Below are positions 16,205 through 21,633 of a stretch of 64,000 nt of DNA, piece by piece. A program made the translations under genes and the position numbers. Origin of the DNA: Streptomyces sp. NBC_01237 (lineage in GTDB: Bacteria > Actinomycetota > Actinomycetes > Streptomycetales > Streptomycetaceae). Below the pieces are notes generated by a model that did no database searches, had not been told where the DNA came from, and worked only from the letters and a program-made list of their open reading frames with translations. Location of the stretch: the NCBI RefSeq assembly GCF_035917275.1, contig NZ_CP108508.1, forward strand, positions 4,712,001-4,776,000, written 5' to 3'. The stretch's first letter is position 1, and each line of letters starts with the position of its first letter.

Positions 16205-16792
16205 ATGGCTCATATATTCATCAACTACCGCAGGGAGGGCGGCGCTTACGCGGCGGCCCTTCTCGATGAGTTGCTGTCCAGGCGCTTCGGGGAAGCGCGG
16301 GTATTTCGGGCAGCGAAGTCCATCACGGCGGGCTCGGACTACGAGAAGTCCCTTCTTGAGGCCGTGCGTGGCTGTGGTGTGATGCTGGTCATCGTGGACG
16401 ACGGGTGGCTGGGCAGATTCGACAGCGACAACGGCGATAGCGACAACGGCGAATCTTCGCCTTCCTCCGATTGGGTCCTGAGGGAGATCGAAGGGGCTCT
16501 GAGATATGAACGGACGGTCATTCCGGTGCTGTTGTCCGGAGTCGATCGTCTGCGTGAGGATGATCTCCCGAACCCGCTGAAGGGACTCGCCGTCCTTCAG
16601 TACCTCAGATTCGACTACCGGAATGTTCGGCAGGACTCCGTCTACCTGGCCGAGCAGCTCGTCCGGGCGTACCCGGCCATCGCAGAGCGAAGAGCCCCCC
16701 GCCCCCGACGCTTCGTACGGTTCTGGAGGGCCCTCAGTGGGGTCACCGGGACACGTGGCGGTTCTGCCGATGCCCATGCACGTGACAGGTAG
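16205..16792 (+). CDS. TIR-domain protein
   Basis: 195 residues. The TIR domain covers about residues 2-135. Box 1 reads F-I-N-Y-R-R-E, then helix A-A-A-L-L-D-E-L, then V-F-R-A-A-K-S-I-T-A-G and L-V-I-V-D-D-G-W-L. The D-W-V-L-R-E-I-E-G-A-L segment (residues ~89-99) supplies the Glu expected in NAD-cleaving TIR domains. A short D-S-D-N-G / D-S-D-N-G insertion around residue 73-81 comes from a 15-bp tandem repeat in the DNA. The C-terminal ~55 residues are basic. A strong GGCGGGGGGA site precedes the ATG. It is convergent with the cyclase/P-loop operon (124 bp between stops). It could be that system's effector or an unrelated neighbour. Confidence 0.88.
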   Translation: MAHIFINYRREGGAYAAALLDELLSRRFGEARVFRAAKSITAGSDYEKSLLEAVRGCGVMLVIVDDGWLGRFDSDNGDSDNGESSPSSDWVLREIEGALRYERTVIPVLLSGVDRLREDDLPNPLKGLAVLQYLRFDYRNVRQDSVYLAEQLVRAYPAIAERRAPRPRRFVRFWRALSGVTGTRGGSADAHARDR

Positions 16793-16915: not shown

Positions 16916-17824
16916 TCACCGACGATCCCCGAACGGGTCGCTCCCGTCCCCCGCCGCACCGGTGTCGCTGATCCGGCGCAGCACCTCGTCGCCCTGCGGG
17001 ACCCCCACGTCGCTCAGGACCCGTGCCATGTTGGCACCGACGAAACCCCGGTCCTCCGGTGTCAGCGACTTGAGCGCCGCCGCGAGGGTGTGTTCCCAGT
17101 CGTTCCGGTCGGAGAGCAGGCTCCGATGGGTCACCGTCCAGTCGAGCACGTCCCGCGCCTGCTCCGGCTGTTGCAGCAGCCAGAAGGCGGCCAGGCCGAC
17201 GGGTCCGCCCGCGACAACCTCCCGGTAGAAGCGGTAGGCCTCACGGTGGGCCTCGCCGAAGCCTGGCGGAAGGGTCAGTTCCGCACCGGCGCCGGTGGTG
17301 GGCAGCAGCGCGGCCGGCGGATCCAGGAACCAGTAGGTGAGGCCGTAGCCGTCGATCACCCGTGGTTGGCCGGGCGGTTCGATCTCGGTCGTACCGAAAT
17401 GGGGCGGAGGCCTCCGCAAGGGGTCGGCGGTGCCGGGCAGCGTGGCGTGGTCACTGATGTGGCCGACCACCAGGTGGCGGGCCTGTTCCTCGGTGATCTG
17501 GCTCCTCGCCGCGACGACCGGGTTGCTGATCTTCCAGGCGACCGTATACCGGGCGGGGGGTTTCGGCGGTCGGCGCGGGATGTCGACCGAGATCCGCCGT
17601 TCTGCGAGCGAGACCCACACGATGTCGAAGAAGTCCCCCTGACGTACCCCACGTGCTGTCGGCCGCGGGTATCCCCAGTGGTCGCCGCTGCGGGGCGGCA
17701 GCATGGCGTCATCCTCGCCGTCCGCGAGAAACACCAGGGCTCGGTTGTCCGCGGAACCGAGCCGGTGGCGGAACAGCTGCCAGGTCGGTGAGGAGGCCAG
17801 AGGCGTGATGAGCGGACCGGTCAT
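16916..17824 (-). CDS. unknown 302-aa protein, third gene of the cyclase operon
   Basis: Not recognised. The start ATG overlaps the stop of the upstream P-loop gene (ATGA), so translation is coupled. Residues ~55-130 (F-F-D-I-V-W-V-S-L-A then R-R-I-S-V-D-I-P, Y-T-V-A-W-K-I-S-N-P-V-V-A-A, E-E-Q-A-R-H-L-V) alternate like the beta-sheet/helix pattern of SPFH-type domains. That resemblance is only suggestive. The C-terminal half (about 190-290) is helical and includes A-F-W-L-L-Q-Q-P-E-Q-A-R-D-V-L. There is no signal peptide or membrane segment. The obligate coupling says it works with the cyclase and the P-loop protein. Confidence 0.75.
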   Translation of the reverse strand: MTGPLITPLASSPTWQLFRHRLGSADNRALVFLADGEDDAMLPPRSGDHWGYPRPTARGVRQGDFFDIVWVSLAERRISVDIPRRPPKPPARYTVAWKISNPVVAARSQITEEQARHLVVGHISDHATLPGTADPLRRPPPHFGTTEIEPPGQPRVIDGYGLTYWFLDPPAALLPTTGAGAELTLPPGFGEAHREAYRFYREVVAGGPVGLAAFWLLQQPEQARDVLDWTVTHRSLLSDRNDWEHTLAAALKSLTPEDRGFVGANMARVLSDVGVPQGDEVLRRISDTGAAGDGSDPFGDRR

Positions 17825-19884
17825 GAGGCGAACCCTTCTGCGGGGGAGCCCGAACGGGCGCGATGGCGACGCAGGACGAAACGCATGACGCCGCGGTGGC
17901 CGCGGGCCGTGCCGGAGAGCGCGGCGAGGAAATGCGGGAAGGCCGTCCGGTGCCGTGGACCCGGGTCGCTCTCGATCCGGTCCAGGCACGACGCCATCGC
18001 CTCGTGGGTGGCAGGGTCGTCCAGGGCGGCGACCACGAGGTCCAAGATCCTCCCGGTGTGGTCCGCGAGCAGGTCGGCGAGACTCACACGACGCACACCC
18101 GGCGCGCTGGGCAGGGGGAAGGAAGCCCTGCTCATCGATTCGACAGCGTGAACGGCCAGACCATGACGTGGTGTGCCCGGACCGGCCCTCTGCCACTCCC
18201 GCAGGAGGTCGAGGACGGGGGCACAGTTCGCGTCCTCGAAAAGAAGGGCGCTGAGAGCGAAGGACACCGCAGTACGCAACGGGACCTCCAGTTTCTCGCC
18301 CGGTTTGTCGAGCACGGTGTCCAGAAGCTTCAGAGCGGCGGCGGGGCGGGCCAGACCGTAACTGCCCCCGCAGGTTTCGGCCACGGTGCAGCGGAGAGCG
18401 ACGGGCGCGGCCCGGCTCCACTGCCGCAACTGCTCCCGTACTGCTCCGGTGAGAGCGGGGTGCTGGACCATCTCCCCGAGCGCGTTGGCCACCAGGCGGC
18501 GGCGCCAGCGCTTGTCCGACGCGGCGAAGGGGTGCAGTTGGCGCAGGGTGTCCGGCCCGGTCGCGTGGGCCAGTACCCTCCCGATCGCCTCGCCCGCCGC
18601 CAGTTCGACGCCGGGCTGGTGCGGAGACTCGTCCAGGCTCTTCCACAGCAGGCCCGCCATGCCCTCGTACTCCAGCCACAGCGACCGGAGCAGGGCATCC
18701 GCCCGGTGCCGTCCGGAGAAGTCGACCGGCTGGACCGGATAGCGCTGCGCCGCTCCGTATTGGGGTGGCAGCAGGCGCGCGCCGACGGCCGCCAGCCGGT
18801 CCTCGAATGCGGGCCCGAGCAGGTCGTGACGGGCCATCGCCCCCTCGCCGTGCCCAGGTCCCACGGCCACCGCCGGTGCCGCGCCGCCGCGGCCGTCGAT
18901 GTGGGGGCGCAGGATCGCGCTGAACCGTTCGACGACCGTACGGTCCTGGTCGGGCAGCAGCGAGATCGCCGCCATCAGCGAGATCCGGTCGGCCCGGTCG
19001 CGTGCTTCCGCGAGCGCTTTGCGCGCCGCCGCGGGGCTGCCGGTCCGCAGGTCGGCGAGGAGGGACGCAGCTGACTTCCCGGTCAGGACGAGGTCGCGCA
19101 GCCCCTCCGCCACCGCGACACCGTCCCCCGGCAGCGGGTGGGCGCCCAGGTGGCCGACGAAGTCCGGCGCGTCCAGGTGCCGCAGCGCATCGGCCTCTTG
19201 TCCGGTGCTGAGTTCACCCGCCTCGGTCATGGTGCTGAGACGCTTCAGGGCCACCTCGGCCGACGGCGGCGGGCGGTGTGCGACCTGCCAGGACAGTGTG
19301 TCGCCGGGCAACGCCGTCTCCGTCCGTAGGGTGACGACCAGATGGGCGCCCGAGCGGCGCAACAGCGAGGCCAGCTCGGTGAGCACCACTTCACCGAGCA
19401 GGTCGGCGGCTCCTGGGGTCAGACCCTGGAGCAGATAGCCCCGCGCCTCCTTGGGACGCCATCGCGACAGATCGTCGGGCGAGTCCAGACCGGTGATCCC
19501 GTCGGCACCGTACCGCTCCGCCAGCAGTGCGAACGCGGCCGTACTTGCGCCGGTGCCGGTGTCGGCCCTCAGCAGCAGGATGTGGCTGTCCAGCGCCTTT
19601 CGGCACTGCACGTAGGTCGGCGGCTCGACGAATCCGAGCAGACGGTCGCGCACGTCGTCCGCGGGGTACGGGCCCTCCCGCAGACGGGGTTTGCGGATGT
19701 GCTCGCTGACGTCACCGTCGGACGGGGCCCCGAACATCACGGTGAGGTCGCCGGTGACTTCGCCCATGATCGCGAAGCCCTGGTCCACCCGCTGCTGGTT
19801 GTCGCGGTAGGAGCTTCCCGGGCCGGGACCCTCCCCAGAGTCCTCGGCGTCCGGACCCGGGGAGGTGTCCGCGCCGGCGCTCAC
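17821..19884 (-). CDS. degenerate P-loop NTPase-like protein with helical repeats
   Basis: 687 residues. Residues 26-48 carry one copy of a motif (Y26, Q31, R32, G36, I39, G41, D46, T48) also found twice in the cyclase tail. Residues ~98-260 look like a STAND/AAA-type core: H-I-L-L-L-R-A-D-T-G-T-G-A-S-T is in P-loop position but has Ala113 instead of the catalytic Lys; V-V-T-L-R-T-E resembles sensor 1; no clear Walker B Asp is seen. Residues ~290-680 are leucine-rich helical repeats (HEAT/TPR-like). The GTG start overlaps the cyclase stop (GTGA), and its stop overlaps the next start (ATGA). The likely role is nucleotide-sensing scaffold rather than active ATPase; this is inference. Confidence 0.8.
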   Translation of the reverse strand: MSAGADTSPGPDAEDSGEGPGPGSSYRDNQQRVDQGFAIMGEVTGDLTVMFGAPSDGDVSEHIRKPRLREGPYPADDVRDRLLGFVEPPTYVQCRKALDSHILLLRADTGTGASTAAFALLAERYGADGITGLDSPDDLSRWRPKEARGYLLQGLTPGAADLLGEVVLTELASLLRRSGAHLVVTLRTETALPGDTLSWQVAHRPPPSAEVALKRLSTMTEAGELSTGQEADALRHLDAPDFVGHLGAHPLPGDGVAVAEGLRDLVLTGKSAASLLADLRTGSPAAARKALAEARDRADRISLMAAISLLPDQDRTVVERFSAILRPHIDGRGGAAPAVAVGPGHGEGAMARHDLLGPAFEDRLAAVGARLLPPQYGAAQRYPVQPVDFSGRHRADALLRSLWLEYEGMAGLLWKSLDESPHQPGVELAAGEAIGRVLAHATGPDTLRQLHPFAASDKRWRRRLVANALGEMVQHPALTGAVREQLRQWSRAAPVALRCTVAETCGGSYGLARPAAALKLLDTVLDKPGEKLEVPLRTAVSFALSALLFEDANCAPVLDLLREWQRAGPGTPRHGLAVHAVESMSRASFPLPSAPGVRRVSLADLLADHTGRILDLVVAALDDPATHEAMASCLDRIESDPGPRHRTAFPHFLAALSGTARGHRGVMRFVLRRHRARSGSPAEGFAS

Positions 19885-20789
19885 CGGGGGTCCCCGGCGC
19901 CACCGACCCGCTTGTCGCCCGCCACGTTGTCGCCGCCGCCCCAGTGCTGATTGGTACCGCGGTACGAGGTGGAACCGCCCGTGTACGTGATGTCCCGCCC
20001 GACGCTCCCCATGACGGCGGCGCCCTCGCCCACATGCTGCGTGTTGCCGCTGTAGTACGGACCGGGCGAGGTCGCCGGGTCCTGTTCCCGGTCGGCGGAG
20101 GTGTCGTTCGGTGCTACGGATTCCTCACGCGGTCGCACACCGGCTTGCACGAGGTTTCCGGACGGCGACGGGACGTACAGCCATGCCCGCTGCGAGAAGT
20201 TCTTCCCCTCCACGGTGGCGGGGACCTCCACGCAGCGATCGGGGTGCAGTCCGGTGTACCCGCCGAGCACTACGTCCTCGTAGACGCGCTGGGAGACGAC
20301 TGCCGCCAGGTGGGTGACCTGATCGCTCGCCGCGCTCAGGATGGCTTTGACCGGACGCGAGTCCAGCAGCCGGTGCGTGTCGTTGCGGGCGGTTCCGTTG
20401 CCGTCGCCGGGGCCGTTCCCGTCCGGCAACGGACCGACGTGAACACTGGCCCGGAGCCGGATGCGGGGGCCCACGCTCTGACGGTTGTACGCGCCGAGGA
20501 TATCGTCCAGCACGCCAAGGAACGGCCAGAGGACAAAGGGGAGCAACGCCGGATCGAAGCCGAACACCACGCCGTCCCCGGTGTTGGCGGGAAACCGCTT
20601 GGAGTGGCGCAGTTCGCTGAGCCCGGCTCGCTCCAGGGCCTGGTCGACGAGTTCGGGGATCAACTGGCTCACCGGTCCGTGCTGCACGGCGGGAAGGCCG
20701 GTGAAGTCCTTTGCGTCGACGGCGAACAGGGCCTGGTAGGGAGGCAGCGGTCGGCTCTCGGAGTACGGAGCGGGGACGGGCGTGGACAT
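19881..20789 (-). CDS. class III nucleotide cyclase with tandem signalling-motif tail
   Basis: 302 residues. The catalytic domain (about 15-210) keeps the class III signature. F-A-V-D25-A-K-D-F-T matches the first metal Asp of D-x-x-x-F-T. N-T-G-D72-G-V-V-F carries the second metal Asp. R-A-S-V-H-V-G matches R-x-x-x-H-x-G. N136-x3-R140 has the exact spacing of the transition-state Asn and Arg. The residue normally Lys in purine-specific adenylyl cyclases (three before G71) is Ala, so the substrate cannot be called. After a ~35-residue linker, residues 246-268 and 276-293 are two copies of a Y-x4-Q-H-x3-G-x2-V-x-G motif shared with the next gene. It starts after GAGGAG, 160 bp downstream of the Crp-type gene. 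Confidence 0.87.
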   Translation of the reverse strand: MSTPVPAPYSESRPLPPYQALFAVDAKDFTGLPAVQHGPVSQLIPELVDQALERAGLSELRHSKRFPANTGDGVVFGFDPALLPFVLWPFLGVLDDILGAYNRQSVGPRIRLRASVHVGPLPDGNGPGDGNGTARNDTHRLLDSRPVKAILSAASDQVTHLAAVVSQRVYEDVVLGGYTGLHPDRCVEVPATVEGKNFSQRAWLYVPSPSGNLVQAGVRPREESVAPNDTSADREQDPATSPGPYYSGNTQHVGEGAAVMGSVGRDITYTGGSTSYRGTNQHWGGGDNVAGDKRVGGAGDPR

Positions 20790-20949: not shown

Positions 20950-21633
20950 TCAACGAGCCGGGGACGGCGATAAGGGCGACGAGGTCATCTCCTGTGCGGC
21001 CGCTGCCCAGGCGCGCAGCACTCTTATGTCCCTGATGACGATCGTTCTGCGGGCTGTCTCCACCGCACCGGACTCCCGCAGCCGTTGCAGTCCGGTGATG
21101 ACTGCGTTGCGGGTCACTCCGATCGCTTGGGCGATCTCCTCCTGGCTCAGGCCGGTCAGCCGTACGCCGTCCGACTCGTTGCCGGGAGCGGTGAGTTCGG
21201 CCAGTCGCAGCAGCGTGCGCGCCAGCCGGACGATCAGCGGCAGAGTCAGCAGCTCGGCGCGGTGCGCATCGGACTCCCGCAGTCGGGAGAACGCCTGGCG
21301 CATCAAGTCCATGACGAGCCCGCGCTGTTCGATGTACCGGCGGAAACGCTCGGCCTCCAGCACGACAGCCGAGCAGGGGGTGAGCGCTACCACTTCCGCT
21401 GTGCGTGGGGTGCCGTTGAAGACGGACACCTCTCCCAGCAGGTCGCCCGGCCCCCGGAAGGCCAGCCAGGTCACGACTCCGCCCGGTTCCCGGCACACGA
21501 CCTTGACGAGGCCGTCGGTGAGGGCGAGCAGGTGCGTTCCCGCAGAGCCCTGTCTCAGCATCACGCTGCGTTCGCGGAAGGTGCGGGTCGCGCCTTGGTC
21601 CCGTAGCTCGCGCCACGTCTCGTCCGACAGCAC
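20950..21633 (-). CDS. Crp/Fnr-family cyclic-nucleotide-responsive regulator
   Basis: 227 residues. The N-terminal half is a cyclic-nucleotide-binding beta roll. The phosphate-binding cassette is readable as G-D-L-L-G-E-V-S-V-F-N-G-T-P-R-T-A, with the conserved Gly-Glu and Arg-Thr. A dimer helix follows. The C-terminal winged helix is of Crp type: L-S-Q-E-E-I-A-Q-A-I-G-V-T-R-N-A-V-I-T-G-L. GTG start with GGGGAAGG eight nt upstream. It is transcribed toward the cyclase operon with a 160-bp gap, enough for a second promoter it might control. It is the natural candidate receptor for the cyclase product. Confidence 0.9.
   Translation of the reverse strand: MLSDETWRELRDQGATRTFRERSVMLRQGSAGTHLLALTDGLVKVVCREPGGVVTWLAFRGPGDLLGEVSVFNGTPRTAEVVALTPCSAVVLEAERFRRYIEQRGLVMDLMRQAFSRLRESDAHRAELLTLPLIVRLARTLLRLAELTAPGNESDGVRLTGLSQEEIAQAIGVTRNAVITGLQRLRESGAVETARRTIVIRDIRVLRAWAAAAQEMTSSPLSPSPAR

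Follow-up and report, generated by a model that had tools for sequence, protein, structure and literature searches.

How is a nucleotidyl cyclase linked to the scaffold protein that is encoded next to it? An operon of Streptomyces sp. NBC_01237 raises this question, as an earlier note had described a motif of about 23 residues shared between the tail of the cyclase and the N-terminus of its neighbour, and had proposed that homotypic assembly recruits the cyclase to the scaffold. Here, we combine profile comparison, structure prediction and pairing tests across related operons with searches of actinobacterial genomes, and discuss how the shared motif may couple the two proteins. The stretch of DNA analysed, 64,000 nucleotides in length, is called the window throughout, and related loci are given L numbers.

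Organisation and spread of the operon

The features of the operon are collected in Table 1. The scaffold and cyclase genes are tightly coupled, the GTG start of the former overlapping the stop codon of the latter by 4 nt. The protein encoded upstream of the cyclase belongs to the CRP family, with Pfam matches to cNMP_binding (E 2.7e-18) and HTH_Crp_2 (E 1.7e-13). The third gene product had no match in its own Pfam scan, and its assignment as an SPFH protein was rejected, Band_7/SPFH-like matches being present in just 2 of the 18 relatives scanned.

Table 1. Features of the window operon (positions in the window).
Feature	Position	Strand	Description
Third gene	16916..17824	-	302 aa; operon position conserved
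Scaffold gene	17821..19884	-	STAND-like/HEAT-repeat scaffold, assigned at family level; 687 aa; GTG start
Degenerate Walker A loop DTGTGAST, scaffold	19540..19563	-	lysine lost
Motif, scaffold N-terminus	19741..19809	-	residues 26-48
Cyclase gene	19881..20789	-	302 aa; class III nucleotidyl cyclase by profile and fold; catalytic domain ordered, tail mostly of low confidence in the monomer model
Diverged copy 2, cyclase tail	19911..19964	-	residues 276-293; resembles copy 1
Motif copy 1, cyclase tail	19986..20054	-	residues 246-268; profile match to scaffold N-terminus
CRP-family regulator gene	20950..21633	-	upstream of cyclase, same strand; cyclic-nucleotide-binding domain

A TIR gene (16205-16792) adjoins the operon on the opposite strand. 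A relative of it with 40% identity (L028/L051) lies upstream of a scaffold gene and bears a motif. The window's own TIR gene is unsupported as a component of the system: a relative was matched in 1 of 20 related regions, and its tail has no visible motif.

The operon structure recurs in other genomes. In 20 regions around relatives (20 of 26 places besides the window), a CRP-family gene is present in 19, a cyclase like that of the window (P0001) in 18 and a relative of the third gene (P0003) in 16. In a second, more distant set of 40 loci, the scaffold gene is preceded by a cyclase gene in 32 cases, by a TIR gene in two and by another gene in six, one of which codes for a BTAD regulator. A CRP gene lies upstream in 24 of these loci and was not found in 16, where some regions are short, so that 43 of the 60 regions have a CRP-family gene upstream in total. 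The scaffold family occurs in 26 of 200 genomes of the taxonomic family and, in an overlapping sample, in 17 of 197 genomes of the order; a broader profile finds it in 50 of 296 genomes of the class.

Further arrangements were seen at individual loci. A second operon adjoins the one of motif class A in L105 (L105:9505-11489) and comprises a CRP gene, a cyclase and a 103-aa protein, with a class-A-like motif common to the cyclase tail and the 103-aa protein. The cyclase gene in L036:3622-6741 is seemingly interrupted, its catalytic and tail-motif parts lying about 2.2 kb apart. L056/L064, L057/L065, L060/L066 and L107 are tandem, with a small protein other than a cyclase and another scaffold of the same motif type lying after the cyclase-scaffold pair. 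Small partner proteins with an N-terminal hydrophobic stretch occur in L156, L165 and L170; they presumably resemble Bell domains, a likeness that no Pfam model confirms.

Identity of the cyclase and the scaffold

The window cyclase alone has no Pfam match. A profile of 14 diverse relatives (A6), searched against the PDB, retrieved class III cyclases (3mr7, E 4.2e-7; Ma1120, E 3.4e-5), and a Foldseek search with the predicted model also returned class III cyclases, with a best E of 1.4e-6, cyclases in all of the best 50 rows (the uridylate cyclase 8jsz at rank 45) and a TM-score to Ma1120 of 0.72, normalised to target length. D25, D72 and R140 are invariant across 14 diverse members, and N136 is kept in class A and B members and missing in several divergent classes. 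The window protein has all four, which we take to be the metal-binding aspartate pair and the N/R transition-state pair of class III enzymes; it combines these catalytic residues with the predicted class III fold, and by profile and fold it is a class III cyclase. The PADLOC PycC model does not match the cyclase family. In the monomer model, pLDDT falls below 50 at residues 231-255, 264-268 and 270-301, that is, over most of 231-301.

The window scaffold (P0002) has no Pfam hit, so that neither an NB-ARC nor a NACHT receptor domain is recognised in it. Among 14 relatives scanned, HEAT_2 is matched in six and nSTAND3 weakly in ten (E of 1 or below, 7e-5 for the best), and the family profile finds alphaRep/HEAT chains in the PDB. 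The neighbour had originally been described as a P-loop protein: the loop DTGTGAST is indeed present, within a STAND-like/HEAT scaffold, but it lacks the Walker A lysine. An intact STAND Walker A (GxxxxGKT/S) with Walker B is not found in the window clade, which has GTGAST at the former and, at the presumed Walker B, a position that is our own reading, GYLLQG without an acid. Class B scaffolds have GRRT, with Arg replacing the lysine, and some of them have an acid at Walker B; the L061 scaffold has both Walker motifs (GKHT and GYLID), and a pattern search found a GK-type loop in 12 of 40 distant scaffolds. As the Walker A lysine is missing in the window clade, NLR-like nucleotide-driven oligomerisation is doubtful there.

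The motif in the cyclase tail and the scaffold N-terminus

The motif reads YSGNTQHVGEGAAVMGSVGRDIT in the first cyclase copy, YRGTNQHWGGGDNVAGDK in the second and YRDNQQRVDQGFAIMGEVTGDLT in the scaffold, exactly at the residues originally given and with the identities listed at positions 0, +5, +6, +10, +13, +15 and +20 to +22. Its consensus is Y..N.Q.V..G.A.MG.V.GD, derived for cyclase copy 1 from 96 of 98 matches and for the scaffold from 35 of 94, those of a single length only. The tail and N-terminus of the window pair align with a Smith-Waterman score of 80, and 0 of 1000 tail shuffles scored as high (L052). Of the 120 cyclases and 110 scaffolds listed, 93 tails and 88 N-termini were aligned separately, and the two orthologue profiles matched each other in hhalign with a score of 75.6, a probability of 98.5 and an E of 1.5e-15, compared with a mean of 10.0 and a maximum of 17.6 over 150 shuffles of the gap-trimmed columns, and 10.1 for the reversed profile. 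In the untrimmed alignment, of which 76 of 135 columns are gap-rich, 3 of 60 shuffles scored above the real match through alignments of 3-8 columns. We regard these scores as an artefact of scrambled gap-rich columns, and base our conclusion on the comparison with gap-trimmed columns and on the tests of pairing.

Three equivalent copies of the motif had been proposed. The match between copy 1 and the scaffold is strong, but copy 2 resembles copy 1 weakly (18.1, against a maximum of 14.1 over 150 shuffles) and has no significant match to the scaffold profile (13.0, with shuffles reaching 17.7). Copy 2 was therefore rejected as an equal third copy and appears to be a diverged repeat within the cyclase tail. 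The motif windows are rich in G, N, V, Q and H with few P, E and K, and the adjoining linkers are P/E-rich; such a composition would be expected of amyloid signalling motifs, yet is no proof.

Cognate co-variation across operons

In divergent operons the motif differs from operon to operon, usually matching inside the pair. Examples are L060 (APHGNINTGTVHGGQSVANH / APHGNVNTGSVHGGQRVHNS), L061 (GPTSFGGHAAGRDV / GPVSFGGHAAGRDV), L067 (GGDQYGVTGGTVHG / DGDQFGQTGGTHYG), L160 (TGKGANANVSGRDQTINQRY / SGKGGNANVSGGDQTINQFY) and, from the window's own genome, L140 (GVFGGMNHGIGGGTFHGDIH / GVFGGVNHGIGGGTFHGDVH).

For the first 40 pairs, for which motif classes had in part been assigned manually once the motifs were known, the cognate score exceeded that with every other-class scaffold in 33 of 40, class C being unseparated, and the shuffle p was above 0.05 in five (L025, L027, L029, L030 and L062). 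These pairs come from 42 loci; L016 and L024 were left out, the effector having been missed by the script although the cyclase tails are present. The next 40 loci were compared free of classes and all were kept, including six where the gene ahead of the scaffold encodes something other than a cyclase or a TIR protein. Their summed cognate score was 2357 versus 1420 for random pairing (sd 60, maximum 1718 of 20,000; z=15.6), with the cognate partner ranked first in 20 of 40 and in the top three in 27; cognate matching fails in L143, L158, L162, L165, L168, L174 and L175. When scaffolds were clustered at 50% identity and each of the 33 clusters contributed a single pair, an equally class-free test gave z=13.8, with 15 cognates ranking first. 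Over all 80 pairs, ungapped 20-mers gave z=20.0 with the cognate partner row-best in 21, a count kept low partly because many pairs have the same motif type. By the ungapped 20-residue test, 54 of the 80 pairs pass and 26 are without a clear match; single linkage groups the passing pairs into 11-13 motif clusters.

The pairing signal is confined to the effector C-terminus and the scaffold N-terminus. Other scaffold segments compared with the effector tail gave z -0.1 (150-300) and 0.4 (300-450), an earlier effector segment (-200 to -130) compared with the scaffold gave z -0.4 (n=37), and the termini of the third gene product carry no cognate tag (C-terminus z 1.6, N-terminus z 1.0). Effectors are exchanged as well: the TIR partners in L028, L171 and L176 have cognate motifs. 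The motif had been read as a link between the cyclase and its neighbour, and this reading is borne out in that the motif forms a cognate pair signal, varying by operon while matching within most pairs.

The window's genome (G000) has three scaffold-family genes, each with a cyclase gene upstream. The window and L140 pairs have cognate scores of 80 and 136, compared with 23-44 crosswise, and the L141 pair is barely separated, at 47 versus 34-44 for mispairs.

At L164, a BTAD/SARP-type regulator upstream of the scaffold has a weakly motif-like tail (score 43, row rank 5), which failed the ungapped test.

Genome searches and motifs ahead of NB-ARC domains

The earlier note had suggested searching genomes with a motif model for pairs in adjacent genes. 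Strong matches of two motif types were found only in adjacent frames. A class A model, run over 101 same-genus genomes, had matches at E <1e-9 solely in adjacent frames, in three genomes, and further matches from E 0.0025, the first being the second cyclase pair in L105; with a class B model, the matches at E 6e-4 or better numbered eight, and these too lay in adjacent frames, again in three genomes. A motif widespread among unrelated single proteins, which would have spoken against the proposed link, was looked for among the strong matches of these searches and not seen.

A further model, A8, built from four other pairs, was run over 148 genomes and matched 10 places at an E of 0.01 or less. 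Domains were scanned at nine of the ten places (L188 was left out) and in one extra frame of L186: the motif lies 41-47 residues ahead of an NB-ARC domain in six of the nine, one has a sub-threshold nSTAND5 and two have neither. In L184 and L189 the reading frame reaches far upstream of the motif. The A8 type is thus tied to NLR-like proteins, at the site that the available text of PMC8086366 and PMC7889193 describes for bacterial amyloid motifs. In the window's genome, an NB-ARC protein (L180, G000:C1:6070290-6070367) has the stretch VVQAHGIHGGVHFH ahead of its NB-ARC domain.

Discussion

How might a paired motif control a cyclase? Starting from what is established, namely the paired motif, its position and cognate co-variation, the exchange between cyclase and TIR effectors, the operon structure, and the fold and catalytic residues of the cyclase, we consider it probable that the motif copies are homotypic tags, likely of the amyloid type, which cluster the dimer-dependent cyclase and thereby switch it on. 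The scaffold, with its degenerate STAND-like P-loop domain and HEAT repeats, would serve as sensor and assembly platform, the HEAT part presumably doing the sensing. Its oligomerisation would bring the N-terminal tags together into a seed, onto which cyclase-tail tags of the same type could stack, most likely as beta-arches in an amyloid-like manner, and the forced proximity of the stacked cyclases would turn on cyclic nucleotide synthesis. Class III cyclases function as dimers, so that clustering of the tails on the scaffold would be a direct on-switch. The natural receiver of the product would be the CRP-family regulator, whose gene lies immediately upstream.

Co-variation and motif position suit any homotypic contact, and the two tags could also dock as a small ordered beta-structure, such as a heterodimer or a low-order beta-sheet or solenoid, that forms a simple recruitment module and no templated amyloid. 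We hold such docking to be unlikely: the composition of the motif, rich in G, N, Q, V and H and poor in P, E and K, the low-confidence tail in the monomer model, and the occurrence of one motif type ahead of NB-ARC domains all suggest the amyloid-signalling class instead. A conserved third gene, present in 16 of 20 regions, would fit a different explanation, in which both copies are epitopes for a common third partner and co-evolve with it; a chaperone, a membrane anchor or the third gene product itself could play this part. However, the 11-13 motif clusters occupy the same two termini and the termini of the third gene product show no cognate match, although a binding pocket would lie outside the reach of that comparison, and we judge a common partner to be improbable.

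The likeness between neighbours might also be left over from a recent duplication or gene conversion event, with no function common to the two genes. In L140, the codon is the same at 19 of 22 identical residues, compared with 11.8 expected, and the best-scoring 27 pairs agree at 340 of 612, compared with 304 expected, as such an origin would have it. Yet over all 80 pairs the codons are the same at 739 of 1394 identical residues, barely above the 690 predicted from codon usage, so that the likeness appears to be maintained mostly at the protein level, and the motif is conserved in orthologues despite diverging linkers. Recent gene conversion is thus unsupported by the codon counts as a general cause, while possible for L140, and we regard an origin of this kind as very improbable for the pairs as a whole.

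The window motif is the visible part of a large family of motifs that are matched within pairs, and under the preferred reading of homotypic, amyloid-type tags these would work like amyloid-type pair signalling. A more tentative possibility is that actinomycetes run many parallel, insulated second-messenger channels, each with an operon-specific motif pair, prion-like templating from scaffold to cyclase and a CRP readout; several could operate per cell, given the three scaffold genes with upstream cyclase genes in the window's genome. If true, amyloid-type signalling would act not only through effectors that kill cells but also through a transcription factor and a second-messenger enzyme. The 11-13 clusters are natural material for studies of templating specificity, and the motif pairs make both the function of bacterial amyloid signalling and the separation of parallel channels directly testable in laboratory strains of Streptomyces.

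Comparison with known systems

The available text on the EAD and Death-like systems of Kaur, Burroughs, Iyer and Aravind describes the same adaptor on a STAND NTPase and its effector (PMC7159879, PMC8195603), a cNMP cyclase infrequently fused to an adaptor that is also found on the N-terminus of iSTAND2 (PMC8195603), and CRP-like regulators linked to some adaptor systems (PMC7159879). The novelty of the present pairing is limited in this respect, as the pairing of cyclase and STAND protein by a common globular adaptor is already in PMC8195603. In contrast to those adaptors, which are described as globular domains, the tags here are motifs of about 20-25 residues and a cyclase is the usual partner. 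A literature search by title and abstract opening, with few subscription journals covered, found no cyclase paired through an amyloid-type motif. Pycsar similarly places a class III-type cyclase beside a cyclic-nucleotide-binding partner, and a uridylate cyclase, 8jsz, turns up in the Foldseek results; however, the cyclase here has no PycC match, is paired with a CRP transcription factor and has a scaffold gene after it.

The closest parallel in bacteria is provided by BASS1-10 (Dyrka et al. 2020), in which, as far as the accessible text goes, effectors bear at the C-terminus a motif that recurs at the N-terminus of a STAND-type protein encoded alongside; such pairs occur mostly in filamentous actinomycetes and cyanobacteria, and effector-side repeats are reported for BASS4 (PMC8086366, PMC12261475, PMC7889193, PMC9815663). 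The layout here is alike in the short motif on the effector C-terminus and the adjacent STAND-like N-terminus, in TIR effectors and in one motif type that precedes NB-ARC. Where BASS is described with a Bell-domain effector, most pairs here have a class III nucleotidyl cyclase; moreover, the scaffold has no NB-ARC or NACHT match and, in this clade, no Walker A lysine, and most operons include a CRP-family regulator. The proposed BASS-type sharing between an NLR-like protein and an effector therefore holds for the placement of the motif, but Pfam gives no NB-ARC or NACHT domain to the receptor. As the likeness moreover rests on description and not on BASS1-10 profile models, we do not claim BASS membership.

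Among fungi, the prion pair HET-S/NWD2 offers a second parallel, one of layout, with no sequence relation apparent. The second repeat here is weak and has no significant scaffold match, and the effector is an enzyme, whereas HET-S is described as a membrane-targeting protein. In both systems, however, the effector tail has two pseudo-repeats, the sensor N-terminus has one, and the two genes adjoin (PMC7889193, PMC8086366).
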